From assembly GCA_903881085.1 (NCBI GenBank), contig CAIRSA010000109.1, positions 1-64,000 on the forward strand: a stretch of 64,000 nt of DNA, read 5' to 3'. Under the pieces are notes generated by a model, which ran no database searches, had not been told where the DNA came from, and was given only the letters and a program-made list of their open reading frames with translations. This stretch comes from an uncultured Acidobacteriia bacterium. Lineage in GTDB: Bacteria > Acidobacteriota > Terriglobia > Bryobacterales > Bryobacteraceae. The translations under genes and the position numbers were made by a program. Within the stretch, counting starts at the first letter, position 1, and every line of letters begins with the position of its first letter. Shown here piece after piece: positions 33,011-45,446 of this stretch.

Positions 33011-35005
33011 CTAATGCACTTGCAGCGCAACCACGAACGTGTGGGCGCCGAAGCTTTCAAACTGGTAGTAGCGTTCGGTCATGCTGTGATACTGCCATTC
33101 CGTGCGCAGACCAAAGTGGGTGCGTAAGGGGATAACCATACGCACCAGCGGTTGGTAGAATTCGGTGGGACGGCTGCCATTCGAGATGAAGCCAGTTCCA
33201 CCGACGCTTATCTTTGCGCCCTTCCAGCAATTGACGTCCAGAGCGCTGGTGAAGGAATGTGAGTTTTCTTTGTAGAAGCTGTCGGCCAGCGTGAGCGTCT
33301 GCGGCACCCAGTAGTTGATGTCGCTGTGCAGCGTCCCACGCGTGTATTCGCCGAGCAGCGTAAAGGTCTTGCCGCCCCACGGAGTCCACATTGCCGTCAG
33401 CGAAGTGGCTCGTGATTGGAAGGTGTAACTTCCCGTTACCGACGGGCTCTCATTATCGAGATAGACGAAACTGCCGCTCAACAGCAGTGACCCAAAGGCC
33501 TGATATTTCGCGCGCAACTTGGTCTTTCTGTAATCCTGCAAGCTTGTCCGGAAGTAAGCCCTGCCCCCGGGAGAAGCTTCGAATTCAAAGTTGGTACTGA
33601 ACTTGTGGCCCATGCGCAGATTCAAGCCGAAGATGCCCACCTGCTGGCTCAACTTGCCGAGTTCCGCAGACTGGGGGAAGATCGGCGAGGGCCGCACGGA
33701 AGCATCTCCCCACACATAGCGGTAGCCGCCACGCACCGTCAGATAGTTGGTCGCCTCAAACAGCGCGTCAATCTGCTGGCGGTTATAATTCCACACGGCG
33801 CTGTCGTAAGCGGCCGGGTTCAATAGAGCGGTCGATTTGTTGCCGGACAGCAGAATTTGCTCAGTAAAGAAAGCGCTGGAGGCGTTGTGTAGCCTGTCCG
33901 TCGACCAGGATTCAATAATCCTGAGCCGGCGGAACGGGCGAATTTCGCCACCCAGTGTGCCAGTTGAATGAGGAAGTTTTGCATCGGCGGTCGTCAAACC
34001 CTGCTGTCCGTTATAAAAAAGCAAGCTGCTTAAAAGGAGGAGCTGGCCGCTGTCGGTCAGCGTGTAATTGGTATGTGTATCGGGCTGGGTATAAAGGAAC
34101 TGCGCGTTCAGGTCGAGCCAGGTAAACGGGTTTGCCGTAAACAGACCCTTGGTATAAATTTGATTGCCGGTGATAGAGTACGCTTGGGCAAGCGATGTGA
34201 GCGACAGCTGCTGCCCCAGGTAAGGCTTCTGATTATTGCCTAAGTTTTTGGCGGTGGAATAGGCGTCGTTCTCTTCAAACATGCCTCCGCCCTGCTCAAC
34301 CGTGGCATGCCACTTCTCAAATTGCATGCGCACGCCACCGCGGATGCGGTCCGTCTTGTCTTCCATGGCGCCGGCCACCGGATACTCATTGCCGTCACTG
34401 ACGAACGATGAGATTCCCGAGCCGCGGCCGGAATCATGACTCCATGCTACATAGGGAACAAAGCGTTTGCCGGGCCTGATGTCGAGTTCGACATTGGCCA
34501 AGCGGCGCTTCTGGTCAATGGACCGCTGGTTGAGAAAGACTCCGGTCGCAATGGTCGGATCGGCATAGGATGGCAGGAAATTGTAGTAAGCGATATTGCG
34601 ATAGTCGACCGACAGGCGGTACACGCCGTCCAACTTCGCATCGAGCCTTGCCGTATTGTACGGATCGCCGCCCCAGCCGTTGGCGCGGATATCGATGCGG
34701 TCGTAAAACTTGTGTGCAGCGTTGGCGATGGAAAGGTCAATGCCAAACAGCTTCGGGCCTTCGCCCAGGTTCACCACGCTGCGGTAGGCTTCCTTGCTGC
34801 CGCGGACATTGGTCACAAAGCGGTAGCCGATATCGGCGTTCCAATTGACGGTGACAGCGGTCTTCTTGGTCTCCTCGGCGGGAGGTGCGTCTTCTTTTTT
34901 GGCCTCGTCTACTTTCGACTCGGGGGCGGCAGGCTTTTCAGCGGCCGGTTTATCCTGCGCTAAAAGCGGCAGCAATGCGAGCGACCATGCGATGAGGATC
35001 TTCAT
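33011..35005 (-). CDS. MtrB/PioB-like outer-membrane porin of a decaheme conduit
   Basis: A 664-residue exported protein (signal peptide 1-16, then a Lys/Glu/Pro/Ala-rich linker to about 48). The remainder is a long run of alternating amphipathic strands (VTVNWNADIGYRF, LRIIESWSTDRLHNA, YLTVRGGYRYVWGDA) ending in TFVVALQVH, as expected for a large beta-barrel. In Mtr and Pio systems this barrel sheathes the MtrA-type cytochrome and inserts it through the outer membrane. The N-terminal Cys-x2-Cys of Shewanella MtrB is not present. It overlaps the decaheme gene by ATGA, the third gene of the operon. Assignment rests on topology, size and operon partners. Confidence 0.85.
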   Translation of the reverse strand: MKILIAWSLALLPLLAQDKPAAEKPAAPESKVDEAKKEDAPPAEETKKTAVTVNWNADIGYRFVTNVRGSKEAYRSVVNLGEGPKLFGIDLSIANAAHKFYDRIDIRANGWGGDPYNTARLDAKLDGVYRLSVDYRNIAYYNFLPSYADPTIATGVFLNQRSIDQKRRLANVELDIRPGKRFVPYVAWSHDSGRGSGISSFVSDGNEYPVAGAMEDKTDRIRGGVRMQFEKWHATVEQGGGMFEENDAYSTAKNLGNNQKPYLGQQLSLTSLAQAYSITGNQIYTKGLFTANPFTWLDLNAQFLYTQPDTHTNYTLTDSGQLLLLSSLLFYNGQQGLTTADAKLPHSTGTLGGEIRPFRRLRIIESWSTDRLHNASSAFFTEQILLSGNKSTALLNPAAYDSAVWNYNRQQIDALFEATNYLTVRGGYRYVWGDASVRPSPIFPQSAELGKLSQQVGIFGLNLRMGHKFSTNFEFEASPGGRAYFRTSLQDYRKTKLRAKYQAFGSLLLSGSFVYLDNESPSVTGSYTFQSRATSLTAMWTPWGGKTFTLLGEYTRGTLHSDINYWVPQTLTLADSFYKENSHSFTSALDVNCWKGAKISVGGTGFISNGSRPTEFYQPLVRMVIPLRTHFGLRTEWQYHSMTERYYQFESFGAHTFVVALQVH

Positions 35006-35937
35006 CGGAGTAGGCTCCTGTTCACGTGCGAGCCATGCACTTTGGTGTGGCAGATGGTGCAGTTCTGGTAGCGCGGACTGCGCAGGTCATGCAGGGCCGG
35101 TGGCACTCCGCCCAGCGTCGCCTGTTGCGTGCCGATGTTGGAGTGGCACTCCAGACACACATTCCGCACCTGATTCCGGGTAAGCAGTTTGGGATTGGCC
35201 GAACCGTGCGGCACATGGCAGGAAGTACAGCCTTCCAACCTCACCGGCGCATGTTCAAAGGCGAAGGGCCCGCGTTTATCGCCGTGGCAGTTGGTACAAG
35301 TCTGGTCGCGCGCCACCGTTTTGCCATGGGGATTATGGCAATCGATGCAGGACATAGCGCCCTCAGGAACCTTATGGCGGTGAGGTTTTTGAAATTCCGC
35401 CTTCTGGGTCACGTGGCATCCCGTGCAGAGCGTGTTGACGGAGGATGCGGCACGGATATTGGTCCCTTTTGCATGCACCGAATGGCACGACACACAACTC
35501 ACCTGGTTCTTGCCATGCCCACTCTGAACGCGACCGCTATGGGCCGGCGAATTCAGATGGCAAGCCAAACAGGTTTTGTCGACCTCGGCGGCGCGCAATT
35601 TCGCAGGTTGGCGGATGTCATCGGCAGAAAGCGATTCCTGGTGCTTCGCGCTCGGTCCGTGACAGGCCTCGCAGGATTTTTCTTTATGAACGTTCTTCTC
35701 AAAAGCTGTGGCTATGTCTTCGTGGCAGGTGGAACAAACTTCGTTCGCCGGATTTTTCGGCGCCGCACCTGCTGCGGATGAGAAGACTAGCAACGCAACG
35801 GCCGCCAGGATCGATTGGGGTACCGCGCCGGGGCTGGCGTTCCGGCGTGGAGGATTCGATACTCCGGCGGCCTGTTGCGTCTTGGCCATGGGGGTGGCCA
35901 TCTCGTGGTAATTATTCAGGTCCATAGCAGCTTTCAT
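35002..35937 (-). CDS. MtrA/DmsE-like periplasmic decaheme cytochrome c
   Basis: A 311-residue c-type cytochrome with exactly ten CxxCH heme motifs (CSTCH, CEACH, CLACH, CVSCH, CTGCH, CIDCH, CTNCH, CTSCH, CLECH, CTICH). Length and heme number match MtrA/DmsE (about 330, ten hemes). The hydrophobic signal core (SILAAVALLVFSSAAGAA) lies at about 42-59, so the mature protein is exported; an internal Met17 is a possible true start. It should thread the MtrB-like barrel and carry electrons from periplasmic donors to the outside cytochrome. It begins 2 bp after the OmcA/MtrC-like stop. Confidence 0.95.
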   Translation of the reverse strand: MKAAMDLNNYHEMATPMAKTQQAAGVSNPPRRNASPGAVPQSILAAVALLVFSSAAGAAPKNPANEVCSTCHEDIATAFEKNVHKEKSCEACHGPSAKHQESLSADDIRQPAKLRAAEVDKTCLACHLNSPAHSGRVQSGHGKNQVSCVSCHSVHAKGTNIRAASSVNTLCTGCHVTQKAEFQKPHRHKVPEGAMSCIDCHNPHGKTVARDQTCTNCHGDKRGPFAFEHAPVRLEGCTSCHVPHGSANPKLLTRNQVRNVCLECHSNIGTQQATLGGVPPALHDLRSPRYQNCTICHTKVHGSHVNRSLLR

Positions 35938-35939
35938 GG

Positions 35940-37961
35940 CTATCTCGCATGCACCTTGTCCACTGAATAATCAGCAGTTGGGGAATGACAGATCGCGCAG
36001 CTTTCGCCTAGCACTGTCGTATTCGATTTCGCGTGCGACGCGGTAGTCGCACTGGTGTGGCAACCCGTGCAGGCCGAGGTGGCCGCTCCCACCGGGTTGA
36101 TCGGCCCTCGCGGATCGATCACCGGCAGCAGGTTTTCGTTTAAAGGTAGTTGCTCTGACCCGTTCACGTGGCAGGCGCTGCAATCGCGCCGGTCACCAGG
36201 GAACTCAACATCTGTAAAGTCGTTCTTCGAACCGCCAAAGCCGTAGACGGTGAACTCGCGGGTGAGGTTCGTTCCCGTATGGATCTTGTGAACCATCTGC
36301 GCGAAGTTGATCGCCTGATTCGGTCCTTGCGAAGCCGGCCGGTATGCCGAATCCGTACCGTTCGGATTGTGGCACAGAACGCACTGCCCAATCTGGTTGC
36401 GATTGCTGCCATGTACACTCAAGCTGTCGTGGCAGGAGTTGCACTTGGCAGTGGCGACCACTTGGCGGCGTGGCGCCACTTTGGAGCCATCCACACTGAA
36501 GTAGATCTGCTGATTGGAGCCGGCATCTGACACCACCTGCTGTTTGGGGAATCCCTGCTGGATCGTGATGCTGCGGTAGCCTTCGATGCCAACGGCGTAG
36601 GAGCCCTTTGCGGTGGCCGGTACGGAAGCGGTAAACGTATAACTATGTGATCCGTCGGAGTTGGCGGGCGCCAAGCGAGCATCCTCAGAGATGTAGCTCG
36701 AGAAGTCACTTGTTGGTCCAGCCAGTACCAGCTGGAGACGGCTTAATTGGCCGGCCGGGACCACGCGCCCTTTCCGATCTTTCACGCGGAACTGAACCGT
36801 AGGCCGCTTGCCGGCGCCCCCGTTTGTGACACCCAATAATTCAAACACAGTTCCTGGGAGATCCATCGAGAACCGTGGAATCGTATGAGCGCCGACTATG
36901 GAAGCGTCGAACTCCAGTTCGCCCTGGGGGACGTGACAGGTTGCGCACTGGTTATCGGTAGTTTGCACCAATTTAGCGTCATTGTGGCCTTCGCCGGTGG
37001 CGAAGTTGACGTTATCGTGGCAGCTACCGCAAGCGGCCCGGGATGGTTTCAGGTAGTTGGTAGACTGCGTCGTCTTGCGGTCGCCGCTCTGTTCGTGGCA
37101 GAACGTGCAGTTACGCGCATCCGAAGGCAGAACAACACCTGAGAAGTCGACAACACTTTGATTGAATCCTATAATTTGATACTTCTTACCAGTCTTCACG
37201 CTGGGCAGGCTGGAACCCATGTGGATCTTGTGCGCCATCACTTTCAGGTCAATCGAATTGCCCGTGTCCGGGTCAGTCGATTGCGGGTTATGGCAAAGGA
37301 CGCAAAGCTCCACCTTCTGGCGTGCTCCGCCGTGGGCCGAAAGCGGGTCGTGGCATTTGTTGCAGGTGGCCGTGCGGATCACATCGCGCACCGCGCTGAC
37401 CTTGCTTCCGTCAGGCACAAAAGAGATTACATCGTCCGAAAAGTTATTCGGCACATTAAATTCGGAAAGATTTCGCGTTGAATAGGCACCAATTGTATGT
37501 GTAGCCGTGCGGTCATATCCGGAAGGCAACTTAGTGCCAAAGGTATATTTAAAGGTTCCGTCGGCCACTGCTTCAAACTTACCGCCGGAATCAGTAGAAC
37601 CCTGCGTGGCTGATTTATTGGTAATGGGGCTGGTTTGAATGCGCGTCGTATAATTGACGTATTGCGTATCGCCCTTGGGGATGTAGGAGATCAGCAAACT
37701 TACGCTGACCGGCCCGGGCGTCTTAACGCCGGCCATATCGAGTGGGACACCCTTTGGATCTGCGAGACTGAACGTGGCAGTAACGGTTCCGTCAGCCGCG
37801 GCGGCACCGGACAACAATTTCAAGGCTAATCCAGGACGCAGATAATCAATATCTTTTTCGTCGAGGTAAAAAGCCCTCTGGTGTTTGTTGAACGATGTTC
37901 TTGTTGCGCTGACTAGTGCAATTGTCATTCCGACTAGCAGCAATGTGAACCTGAGCTTCAT
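35940..37961 (-). CDS. OmcA/MtrC-family surface decaheme cytochrome c
   Basis: A 673-residue exported cytochrome from ATG 37961 (AGGA 8 nt upstream; signal MKLRFTLLLVGMTIALVSA). Ten CxxCH motifs occur in two pentaheme groups: CNKCH, CVLCH, CTFCH, CGSCH, CATCH and, after a beta domain, CNSCH, CVLCH, CSACH, CTGCH, CAICH. The halves are visibly duplicated (CNKCHDPLSAHGG and CNSCHDSLSVHGS; both followed by CVLCHNP and HKIHxG). This is the MtrC/OmcA plan of alternating split-barrel and heme domains, the terminal reductase of extracellular electron transfer. Unlike Shewanella MtrC there is no lipobox cysteine. It is the first gene of the operon with the periplasmic cytochrome and porin. Confidence 0.95.
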   Translation of the reverse strand: MKLRFTLLLVGMTIALVSATRTSFNKHQRAFYLDEKDIDYLRPGLALKLLSGAAAADGTVTATFSLADPKGVPLDMAGVKTPGPVSVSLLISYIPKGDTQYVNYTTRIQTSPITNKSATQGSTDSGGKFEAVADGTFKYTFGTKLPSGYDRTATHTIGAYSTRNLSEFNVPNNFSDDVISFVPDGSKVSAVRDVIRTATCNKCHDPLSAHGGARQKVELCVLCHNPQSTDPDTGNSIDLKVMAHKIHMGSSLPSVKTGKKYQIIGFNQSVVDFSGVVLPSDARNCTFCHEQSGDRKTTQSTNYLKPSRAACGSCHDNVNFATGEGHNDAKLVQTTDNQCATCHVPQGELEFDASIVGAHTIPRFSMDLPGTVFELLGVTNGGAGKRPTVQFRVKDRKGRVVPAGQLSRLQLVLAGPTSDFSSYISEDARLAPANSDGSHSYTFTASVPATAKGSYAVGIEGYRSITIQQGFPKQQVVSDAGSNQQIYFSVDGSKVAPRRQVVATAKCNSCHDSLSVHGSNRNQIGQCVLCHNPNGTDSAYRPASQGPNQAINFAQMVHKIHTGTNLTREFTVYGFGGSKNDFTDVEFPGDRRDCSACHVNGSEQLPLNENLLPVIDPRGPINPVGAATSACTGCHTSATTASHAKSNTTVLGESCAICHSPTADYSVDKVHAR

Positions 37962-38095
37962 TCCGCTTTTCCTAAGGCACGCTACTGGCCAAAGCCAATA
38001 CGCACTCAAAATCAATAGTTTGCCGAATTCCCGGCGAATTTCATGGGTGAAATAACTCGGGCTTGGGTGGTCACGGGGTGTAAACTCGAATCAGG

Positions 38096-43628: not shown

Positions 43629-45446
43629 TTAAGGCTCGACCGTAAGGCGATACATCATGCCCATGTCCTCGTGTTCGAGGATGTGGCAGTGGTATACATA
43701 GTCGCCGGAGAACCCGTCGAATCTTACGAGGACGCGTGTGGATTGCCTGGGATTGCAGCGCACCGTGTCCTTCCAGCCTTTTTCAAAGTCTTCCACCAGC
43801 GCCCGCTCTATTTTGCCGCCGGGAAGTACAGTGTAGTTCCGAGCGTCTTTCGGTTCCGGCAGATCGGAAGTGACTCGGCTGGGATCGTCCACCACGGTTA
43901 ACCATGTGCGGCTCAGGACCCGGAATTGAACCAGGTGTATGTGCATGGGGTGGGTGTCGGGAGTCACGTTCAAGAACTCCCAGACTTCGATGGCATTCAG
44001 TTTGGCGGAGACGGGCGGAGCGTCTTTCCAGGACTGTCCGTTAATTTGAACGGATGGGACGCGCATTCCATCGAGGGTACTCATTTCCATCTGGTATTCT
44101 TCGAGCTTGAAACGCCGGAGCGTGAAATGAACACCCCCAGCCTTCAGTGCTTGCGGGTCCATCACGTCGAGTTTCACTTCGTCAATCGCTTTATTGATCG
44201 CGTTGAAGGTGTTGGGCAGCGGAAAGTGCGGCTTGACAGTAGACAGCGAGTCGACACGAGGAGGCAATTTGATCGACTTCGGATTGAACTTCTTGTCGCT
44301 TGCGACCGCAGGACCCGTGATAACAACTTTGAGGAGTTCGCAACAGAAATTCTCCGGGTCAGTGATGTCGAGGGGCTTATAGTCCTTACTGGCGAAATGA
44401 GGGTCTCTGGGATCTCCAGAATAAGGAGCGGGAGCGTCGTTCCGTAGCAGCAGACTATCGCCTTCGTGCAGCCCGCGAAGATCCACTAAGAGATCCACGC
44501 GTTCGCCCGGCGCGATGAGCAGCGGCGTCACTGCGGACGGCTTTTCGAGGAAGCCACCCTCCGTTCCAATCACCCAGAAGGGGATGGTGGCCTTCGGGTC
44601 GTTTTCTGAGGCCAGCGTCAGATTGAAGAATCGCGTGTTCGCGCCATTGAGCAGCCGGAAACGGTAAATCCTGGGCGCGAGTTCCAGCAGAGGCCAGATC
44701 TGACCATTCACAACCGGATGGTCACCGACAAATTCAGGTTGGGCAGCGACGGTTGATGGCCCACCTGTCTTCTTGTCCGCTGGCGTTGCACTCACCGATT
44801 GCTCATAGTACAACCTGAATTTTCCGTCGCTGTCTGTAGCGAAACTCTTGTCCTGAAGGATCAGAGGAATCTCCAGGTCGCCAGCCGGCAGCATGGAGTC
44901 TTCCGCGGGGTCTCGCAGGATATACGCCCCGAAGAGACCTGCATAAACGTTGAGGCGCGTCACGTCCATCGCGTGGTCGTGGTACCAAAGCGTAGCTGCC
45001 GGTTGATTGTTCGGATAATGAAAGACCCTGCCCTCGCCTGAGTGAAACACACTGTCCGGAAAACCGTCAGATGTCCACGGCACGCGAGCACCATGCATGT
45101 GCACCTGATTGTGACTCTTCGTCATCATGTGATCTTCTTCCATGCCCTGGCGAACGCCGAGGAGGAGCAGACCGTTTAAGTTTTCCTTCCCAAGAGAGTT
45201 GTACCAGGTGATTTCGACCGGGACACCAGGCTTCGCCACAATGAGTTCTCCCGGCGACTTTGGCCCGAAGCTCCACATCGGGATGTCTTGTAGGCGCGGG
45301 TGAAACGTGTGGGCGATGGAGCGGAGCTCGATGCGATAATGCTCCGTTCCGTCAGGATCCGTCTGCGAGGGCGTTGTGGGGGTGAGACTCCGCAGTTTAT
45401 TTGTGTCAAGCCACTTGTCTTTCGATGGGTCAAGTCGAAATGTCAT
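43629..45446 (-). CDS. Multicopper oxidase (CotA/bilirubin-oxidase-like laccase)
   Basis: A 605-residue three-cupredoxin enzyme. All four copper-binding clusters are seen: HMHGARV, WYHDHAM, THPMHIHLVQF and YHCHILEHEDMGMM, giving T1, T2 and T3 coppers. It would oxidise phenols, metals or bilirubin-like compounds and reduce oxygen to water. No signal peptide is seen, as in spore-coat CotA, which is unexpected for an enzyme usually found outside the cytoplasm in Gram-negatives. AGAGGAAC precedes the ATG. It is alone in its transcription unit. Confidence 0.93.
   Translation of the reverse strand: MTFRLDPSKDKWLDTNKLRSLTPTTPSQTDPDGTEHYRIELRSIAHTFHPRLQDIPMWSFGPKSPGELIVAKPGVPVEITWYNSLGKENLNGLLLLGVRQGMEEDHMMTKSHNQVHMHGARVPWTSDGFPDSVFHSGEGRVFHYPNNQPAATLWYHDHAMDVTRLNVYAGLFGAYILRDPAEDSMLPAGDLEIPLILQDKSFATDSDGKFRLYYEQSVSATPADKKTGGPSTVAAQPEFVGDHPVVNGQIWPLLELAPRIYRFRLLNGANTRFFNLTLASENDPKATIPFWVIGTEGGFLEKPSAVTPLLIAPGERVDLLVDLRGLHEGDSLLLRNDAPAPYSGDPRDPHFASKDYKPLDITDPENFCCELLKVVITGPAVASDKKFNPKSIKLPPRVDSLSTVKPHFPLPNTFNAINKAIDEVKLDVMDPQALKAGGVHFTLRRFKLEEYQMEMSTLDGMRVPSVQINGQSWKDAPPVSAKLNAIEVWEFLNVTPDTHPMHIHLVQFRVLSRTWLTVVDDPSRVTSDLPEPKDARNYTVLPGGKIERALVEDFEKGWKDTVRCNPRQSTRVLVRFDGFSGDYVYHCHILEHEDMGMMYRLTVEP

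Follow-up and report, generated by a model that had tools for sequence, protein, structure and literature searches.

The closest described systems to the locus examined here are the Bryobacterales MtrCAB operons, already recognised as Group 5 (Baker et al. 2022, PMC8805035); that study had five acidobacterial matches and reported no inner-membrane quinone oxidoreductase near any Group 5 mtrCAB. Solved structures come from Shewanella (MtrCAB 6R2Q; OmcA 4LMH, MtrC 4LM8, MtrF 3PMQ), while PioAB and MtoAB also hold a decaheme A protein within a barrel B protein and have no C gene and an oxidative role. On the donor side, ImcH is defined by N-terminal membrane helices, an adjoining CX3CH, 5-9 CX2CH motifs and a NapC/NirT-like region, and the 2018 survey that gave this definition found no mtrAB adjoining imcH (PMC6295460). 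Here we analysed a 64,000-nucleotide stretch (the window) from the draft genome of an uncultured Bryobacteraceae bacterium (11.9 Mb, 588 contigs), which carries an operon of mtrC/omcA-like, mtrA-like and mtrB-like genes, called C, A and B below. This operon is a new member of the described group, and its apparent pairing with ImcH- and CbcL-like proteins, together with an unanchored C, makes the system a variant. It resembles Group 5 in bacterial order, in its C-A-B gene set and gene order, and in having no inner-membrane donor beside mtrCAB, and it differs in having no tetraheme gene directly after mtrB, a gene found there in all Group 5 members.

Structure of the operon

The three genes are transcribed in the order C-A-B, with a gap of 2 bp between C and A and an overlap of 4 bp between A and B:

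35940-37961, minus strand: C, mtrC/omcA-like gene, decaheme c-type cytochrome of 673 aa counted from the ATG
35002-35937, minus strand: A, mtrA-like gene, decaheme c-type cytochrome of 311 aa
33011-35005, minus strand: B, mtrB-like gene, large outer-membrane beta-barrel of 664 aa with a signal peptide

A preliminary description, made from the letters of the window, had reported three adjacent minus-strand genes with this gap and overlap, and the open reading frame (ORF) coordinates agree. It had ended C at 37961, at an ATG that we prefer to the TTG at 38015 chosen by the ORF tool, because a stretch AGGAAAA precedes the ATG and the signal peptide obtained from this start is normal. Its count of ten CxxCH in each cytochrome was exact, whereas residue shuffles of A and C reached at most 2 and 1. 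Its statement that the window holds no CymA-like donor also stood, A and C being the sole multiheme products among the window ORFs. The gene after B lies on the opposite strand and has no heme motif, and a scan for promoters and terminators returned no signal exceeding shuffles.

Predicted identity of the three proteins

The identity of B rested on its position until tested, since hmmscan against Pfam and NCBIfam at E 0.01 returned no match; searches of the PDB by sequence or profile likewise gave no match of weight. A weak PF11854 (MtrB_PioB) match for B appeared in a six-frame search of the genome (25.7 bits against a cut-off of 23), and among 20 relatives of B, 7 matched PF11854 (best 3.7e-9) and 2 matched TIGR03509. 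The AlphaFold model of B, made with 60 homologues, had a predicted local distance difference test score (pLDDT) of 84.8 and 28 predicted strands. Its comparison with MtrB (6r2q_B) gave a VIA Z of 25.0 over 547 residues at a root-mean-square deviation of 4.0, the next barrel reaching 16.5, and Foldseek placed the same chain at rank 1 (E 1e-14). The identity of B as an MtrB-type barrel was thus settled by structure prediction.

For the cytochromes, sequence families gave the answer directly. A scored 216 bits against TIGR03508 (DmsE/MtrA family, cut-off 192) and matched MtrA in the PDB (6r2q_A, E 4e-34, a chain whose printed molecule name is wrong). It has no cysteines outside its ten CxxCH; in an alignment of 64 relatives these motifs and ten candidate distal histidines were invariant, and nine of the ten histidines were also aligned in Photobacterium MtrA. 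Judged by its sequence, A is an MtrA/DmsE-family decaheme with ten predicted bis-histidine hemes. C scored 518 bits against TIGR03507 (OmcA/MtrC family, cut-off 209), matched PF22113 twice in the Pfam hmmscan and found MtrF, OmcA, UndA and MtrC in the PDB. All of its 20 cysteines lie within CxxCH. The AlphaFold model of C (pLDDT 86) gave VIA Z values of 26.2 for OmcA (4lmh), 23.1 for UndA, 20.6 for MtrC and 19.9 for MtrF, no unrelated chain exceeding 8.7. By sequence and by predicted fold, C is an OmcA/MtrC-family decaheme.

The preliminary description had called A MtrA/DmsE-like, C OmcA/MtrC-like and B an MtrB/PioB-like porin, the three together forming a full conduit from periplasm to cell surface. 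These assignments held: both cytochromes exceed curated family cut-offs, A also by its match to 6r2q_A and C by a model that matches only OmcA, UndA, MtrC and MtrF, while relatives of B match PF11854 and its predicted fold is closest to MtrB by a wide margin. Modelling of B as a large porin had been set beforehand as a check, and it gave the 28-strand barrel with 6r2q_B as best match. A possible grouping of the cytochromes with nitrite or tetrathionate families was also checked, and they fall in TIGR03508 and TIGR03507 instead. With the parts, their families, their folds and their conserved linkage in hand, and with assembly presumed to follow the solved homologues, the three genes almost certainly specify an MtrCAB-type outer-membrane conduit. 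By analogy, A would thread its ten bis-histidine hemes through B, and electrons would cross the outer membrane between periplasm and surface.

With Shewanella MtrCAB the window system shares ten hemes in A and in C, a large barrel B, the operon order and the folds of B and C. It differs in that C has neither a lipid anchor nor the domain III cysteine pair, B has a single cysteine (residue 593) and no N-terminal CXXC, and the donor is apparently ImcH/CbcL-like, not CymA. According to PMC12175506, the N-terminal CXXC of MtrB is a signature of metal-reducing Gammaproteobacteria (citing Wee et al. 2014) and matters for Fe(III) reduction by Shewanella. A further comparator was the sole MtrA match in a plasmid collection, a 2.1-Mb Photobacterium sp. 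DA100 replicon listed as a plasmid (NZ_CP119424.1, locus L198), whose MtrCAB cluster also holds a CymA-like tetraheme and a diheme cytochrome; its MtrC has an LAAC lipobox and its MtrB a CSDC near the N-terminus, and the window proteins have neither.

Distribution among relatives

Relatives of B of any kind were present in 112 of 121 genomes of the same family, and a window-type B (match E below 1e-40) in 95 of them; in a phylum-wide sample, 68 of 297 genomes had a B match. The conduit is a near-core trait of the family and occurs more widely than PMC8805035, with five acidobacterial cases, had shown. Where genomes were named, the B relatives belonged to acidobacterial metagenome-assembled genomes (MAGs), mostly of Bryobacterales or Solibacteraceae, in line with the acidobacterium-like origin first proposed for the window. 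The closest relatives are Bryobacterales MtrCAB, as judged from our match records and our own tree of C. The C-A-B order is conserved, and A, B and C occurred together in 31 of the 42 named loci that had at least 5 kb on either side of B.

Several arrangements departed from the common one. In loci L149, L151, L163, L174 and L175 the order C-A-B is replaced by A-B ... C, C lying downstream of the pair, and L113 and L139 carry two tandem C genes. A relative at L090 has, between mtrC and mtrB, a gene for a 17-heme protein (L090:8644-11277) in which an ImcH-like N-terminal half is fused to repeated cytochrome c7-like units. An acidobacterial-type A-B pair (B 38%) also appeared in a contig filed as Candidatus Sumerlaeaceae (L161, JAIBAT010000047.1), through either transfer or mis-binning.

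Around the window operon, a multicopper oxidase gene (CueO/PhsA-like) lies upstream at 43629-45446. This oxidase, an alpha/beta hydrolase, an enolase-like protein and a small secreted protein were considered as operon partners and rejected, being essentially unconserved near mtrCAB in 80 relatives.

A candidate inner-membrane donor

No CymA-type donor was found in the genome, which has two PF03264 matches, neither of them a tetraheme of about 190 aa. A search of the rest of the genome for a quinol-to-cytochrome donor, recommended in the preliminary description, instead yielded a candidate pair on contig C445. The first member is the only ImcH-like gene of the genome; its 467-aa product has a PF03264 (NapC/NirT) N-terminal region, N-terminal membrane helices (2 of the 3 expected pass the hydropathy threshold, as do 2-3 in relatives), a CX3CH at residue 135 and five CX2CH, in agreement with the published ImcH definition (PMC6295460). 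Its CbcL-like neighbour combines seven CX2CH with a cytochrome b561-type membrane domain and fits published descriptions of CbcL, MtrH and MtoC. The pair has the architecture described for Geobacter ImcH and CbcL (PMC6295460), which feed other, porin-cytochrome conduits, unlike the MtrCAB partner proposed here. In the plasmid collection, the ImcH-like query found a partial NapC/NirT match only.

The C445 pair is supported as donor candidate by gene neighbourhood and co-occurrence. Of 80 named loci, 23 had an ImcH-like homologue close to mtrCAB, and all homologues that were measured had five CX2CH and one CX3CH; some of the genes begin 2 to 19 bp after mtrB, some loci also have a CbcL-like gene, and L139 reads C-C-A-B-tetraheme-ImcH-CbcL on one strand. 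Across the family, 97 of 121 genomes had an ImcH-like gene, including 90 of the 95 with a window-type B but only 7 of the 26 without (Fisher 3e-12). Among the 90 genomes having both, the ImcH-like gene was within 10 kb of B in 23, where chance placement of a gene in a 6-Mb genome would give about 0.3%. In contrast to the set of PMC8805035, many relatives here carry an ImcH-like gene, a CbcL-like gene or both close to the conduit, and this larger sample changes the absence of donor-conduit adjacency reported in the 2018 survey and by Baker et al. We found no report of ImcH-MtrB adjacency in Acidobacteria in the open-access literature. On this evidence, the ImcH-like protein is fairly likely to be the electron donor to the conduit.

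It could be argued that another quinol dehydrogenase is the donor and that the co-occurrence merely reflects common ancestry. The genome does encode several further multiheme proteins, among them NapC-like nonaheme membrane cytochromes that adjoin GMC-type oxidoreductases (named by sequence reading) on contigs C441 and C336:

L012:2007-4789: NapC-like nonaheme with GMC-type oxidoreductase
L028:5206-7892: NapC-like nonaheme with GMC-type oxidoreductase

These nonahemes were set aside as donors, since none stands beside mtrCAB in the 80 relatives, and with their GMC partners they possibly form a separate periplasmic dehydrogenase chain. ImcH-like genes, by contrast, repeatedly adjoin mtrCAB on either side and at varied distances, which is unexpected from ancestry alone, and the gene is single-copy in this genome; we regard a different donor as rather unlikely.

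With the ImcH-like protein as donor, electrons would pass from menaquinol to this membrane cytochrome, probably together with its CbcL-like neighbour, and from there to the conduit, as neighbourhood and co-occurrence suggest. Periplasmic carriers may take part, for example the tetraheme cytochrome of relatives, which consists of four class-I-like cytochrome c domains (by sequence reading) and is encoded beside mtrB in many of them; a 44% relative of the Group 5 tetraheme lies at C158:34527-35588, at a contig end.

Position of the MtrC-like cytochrome

C has a Sec-type signal peptide and no lipobox, and the lipobox pattern in 53 C relatives gave three doubtful matches, probably N-terminal over-extensions or sites inside the hydrophobic stretch. 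Shewanella counterparts form a redox-active disulfide at the position of the domain III cysteine pair; the pair (mostly CX5C) is kept in 25 of 41 acidobacterial C proteins, and the window C is not among them. We suggest that C caps A-B on the outside, its ten hemes making contact with the external partner, as its solved Shewanella homologues would predict. Given that C has no lipid anchor, type II secretion is the probable export route, and contact with A-B or a conserved N-terminal stretch may hold the protein in place.

The missing lipobox in C and its relatives could also mean that C is periplasmic or released and that A and B alone form the conduit. Use of C proteins apart from a conduit is indicated by three stand-alone OmcA/MtrC-type decaheme genes of this genome, on contigs C336, C431 and C30, with no A or B adjoining:

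L009:7296-9341: stand-alone OmcA/MtrC-type decaheme
L010:5927-8110: stand-alone OmcA/MtrC-type decaheme
L011:7669-9705: stand-alone OmcA/MtrC-type decaheme

We nevertheless consider it unlikely that C is not the surface cap, as most relatives likewise keep C in an operon with A and B, and as C has the predicted fold of the surface cytochromes OmcA and MtrC, and belongs to a genome in which GspD is present. Recent duplication was rejected as the origin of the three orphan genes, which form long branches and show no close pairing with the window C in the tree.

Direction of electron flow and acceptor

Because ImcH has so far been implicated in quinol oxidation only (PMC6295460), the proposed donor favours outward flow. 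Fe(III) reduction is known from a cultured bacterium of this order, Paludibaculum fermentans, which also has numerous multiheme cytochromes (PMC8407742), and an earlier peat metagenome study proposed acidobacterial decahemes as Fe reducers (PMC3669403). In reductive use, respiratory or fermentative electrons would be passed to Fe(III) or Mn(IV) oxides or to humics at low oxygen; the direction of ImcH and the Fe(III) reduction by P. fermentans point this way. By analogy with these systems, we judge outward flow quite likely and metals or humics as acceptors slightly favoured.

With inward flow, the conduit would work as PioAB and MtoAB do and draw electrons from an external donor such as Fe(II). 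MtrA and MtrB do not separate into a reducer and an oxidiser clade (PMC8805035), oxidisers too have homologues of CbcL/MtoC (PMC6295460), and the genome has a second A-B pair on contig C289 (L026:7201-10201; A 37.9% and B 23.8% identical to the window proteins) with no adjoining C, which is the Pio/Mto layout. The window operon, however, contains the C gene that Pio and Mto lack, its associated donor is of the ImcH-like type, implicated so far in reducers alone (PMC6295460), Fe activity in the cultured member of the order is reductive (PMC8407742), and no gene resembling HiPIP was recognised next to the operon. Inward flow is accordingly the reading we find quite improbable. Directly upstream of the C289 pair is a gene for a small OmpA/OprF-type barrel, and this type of pair recurs in other family genomes (L094-L097).

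A defined extracellular substrate outside metals and humics, such as dimethyl sulfoxide (DMSO), as in the DmsE branch of the A family, is very unlikely: TIGR03508 is named for DmsE besides covering MtrA and substrates are not readable from sequence, but no molybdoenzyme of DmsA/B type was recognised next to mtrCAB, the partner C is an OmcA/MtrC cytochrome by sequence and predicted fold, and the multicopper oxidase and other flanking genes are not conserved near mtrCAB.

Taken together, we assign a probability of about 0.72 to the whole explanation, namely a Group 5 conduit fed by the ImcH-like and CbcL-like pair and used reductively. Several points weigh against it. We infer conduit function, direction, substrate and donor coupling from sequence. 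The coupling rests on relatives, because donor and conduit genes are on separate contigs in this genome, a 588-contig assembly with an estimated contamination of 5.4%. The statistic for co-occurrence of ImcH-like genes and B ignores shared ancestry and gaps in the genomes, and the ImcH and CbcL assignments were made from architecture, Pfam and published descriptions, not from Geobacter sequence. The structural alignment of B with MtrB has 13% identity, near noise level. Finally, with no lipobox or domain III cysteines in C and no CXXC in B, performance may differ from that of the Shewanella system.

Implications for the Bryobacteraceae

The individual parts of this system are known; the searchable literature gave no account of their combination or of its spread through the family. 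We see a little better than an even chance that the Bryobacteraceae share a near-core hybrid export chain, in which ImcH-like and CbcL-like quinol oxidases of Geobacter type, in the inner membrane, feed an unanchored, Shewanella-type MtrCAB, with the genes scattered along the chromosome in some lineages, this one included. This would address a stated gap, the lack of any recognised inner-membrane donor for the Mtr group of Acidobacteria, and the ImcH-CbcL-MtrCAB route, if true, would show that modules of the inner and the outer membrane regarded as characteristic of separate phyla can be joined. The Bryobacteraceae are abundant soil acidobacteria known mostly from MAGs. If the proposal is correct, a large family of soil and peat, usually treated as heterotrophic, would be genetically equipped to dump electrons on minerals or humics, which would matter for iron cycling and, in wet soils, for competition with methanogenesis.

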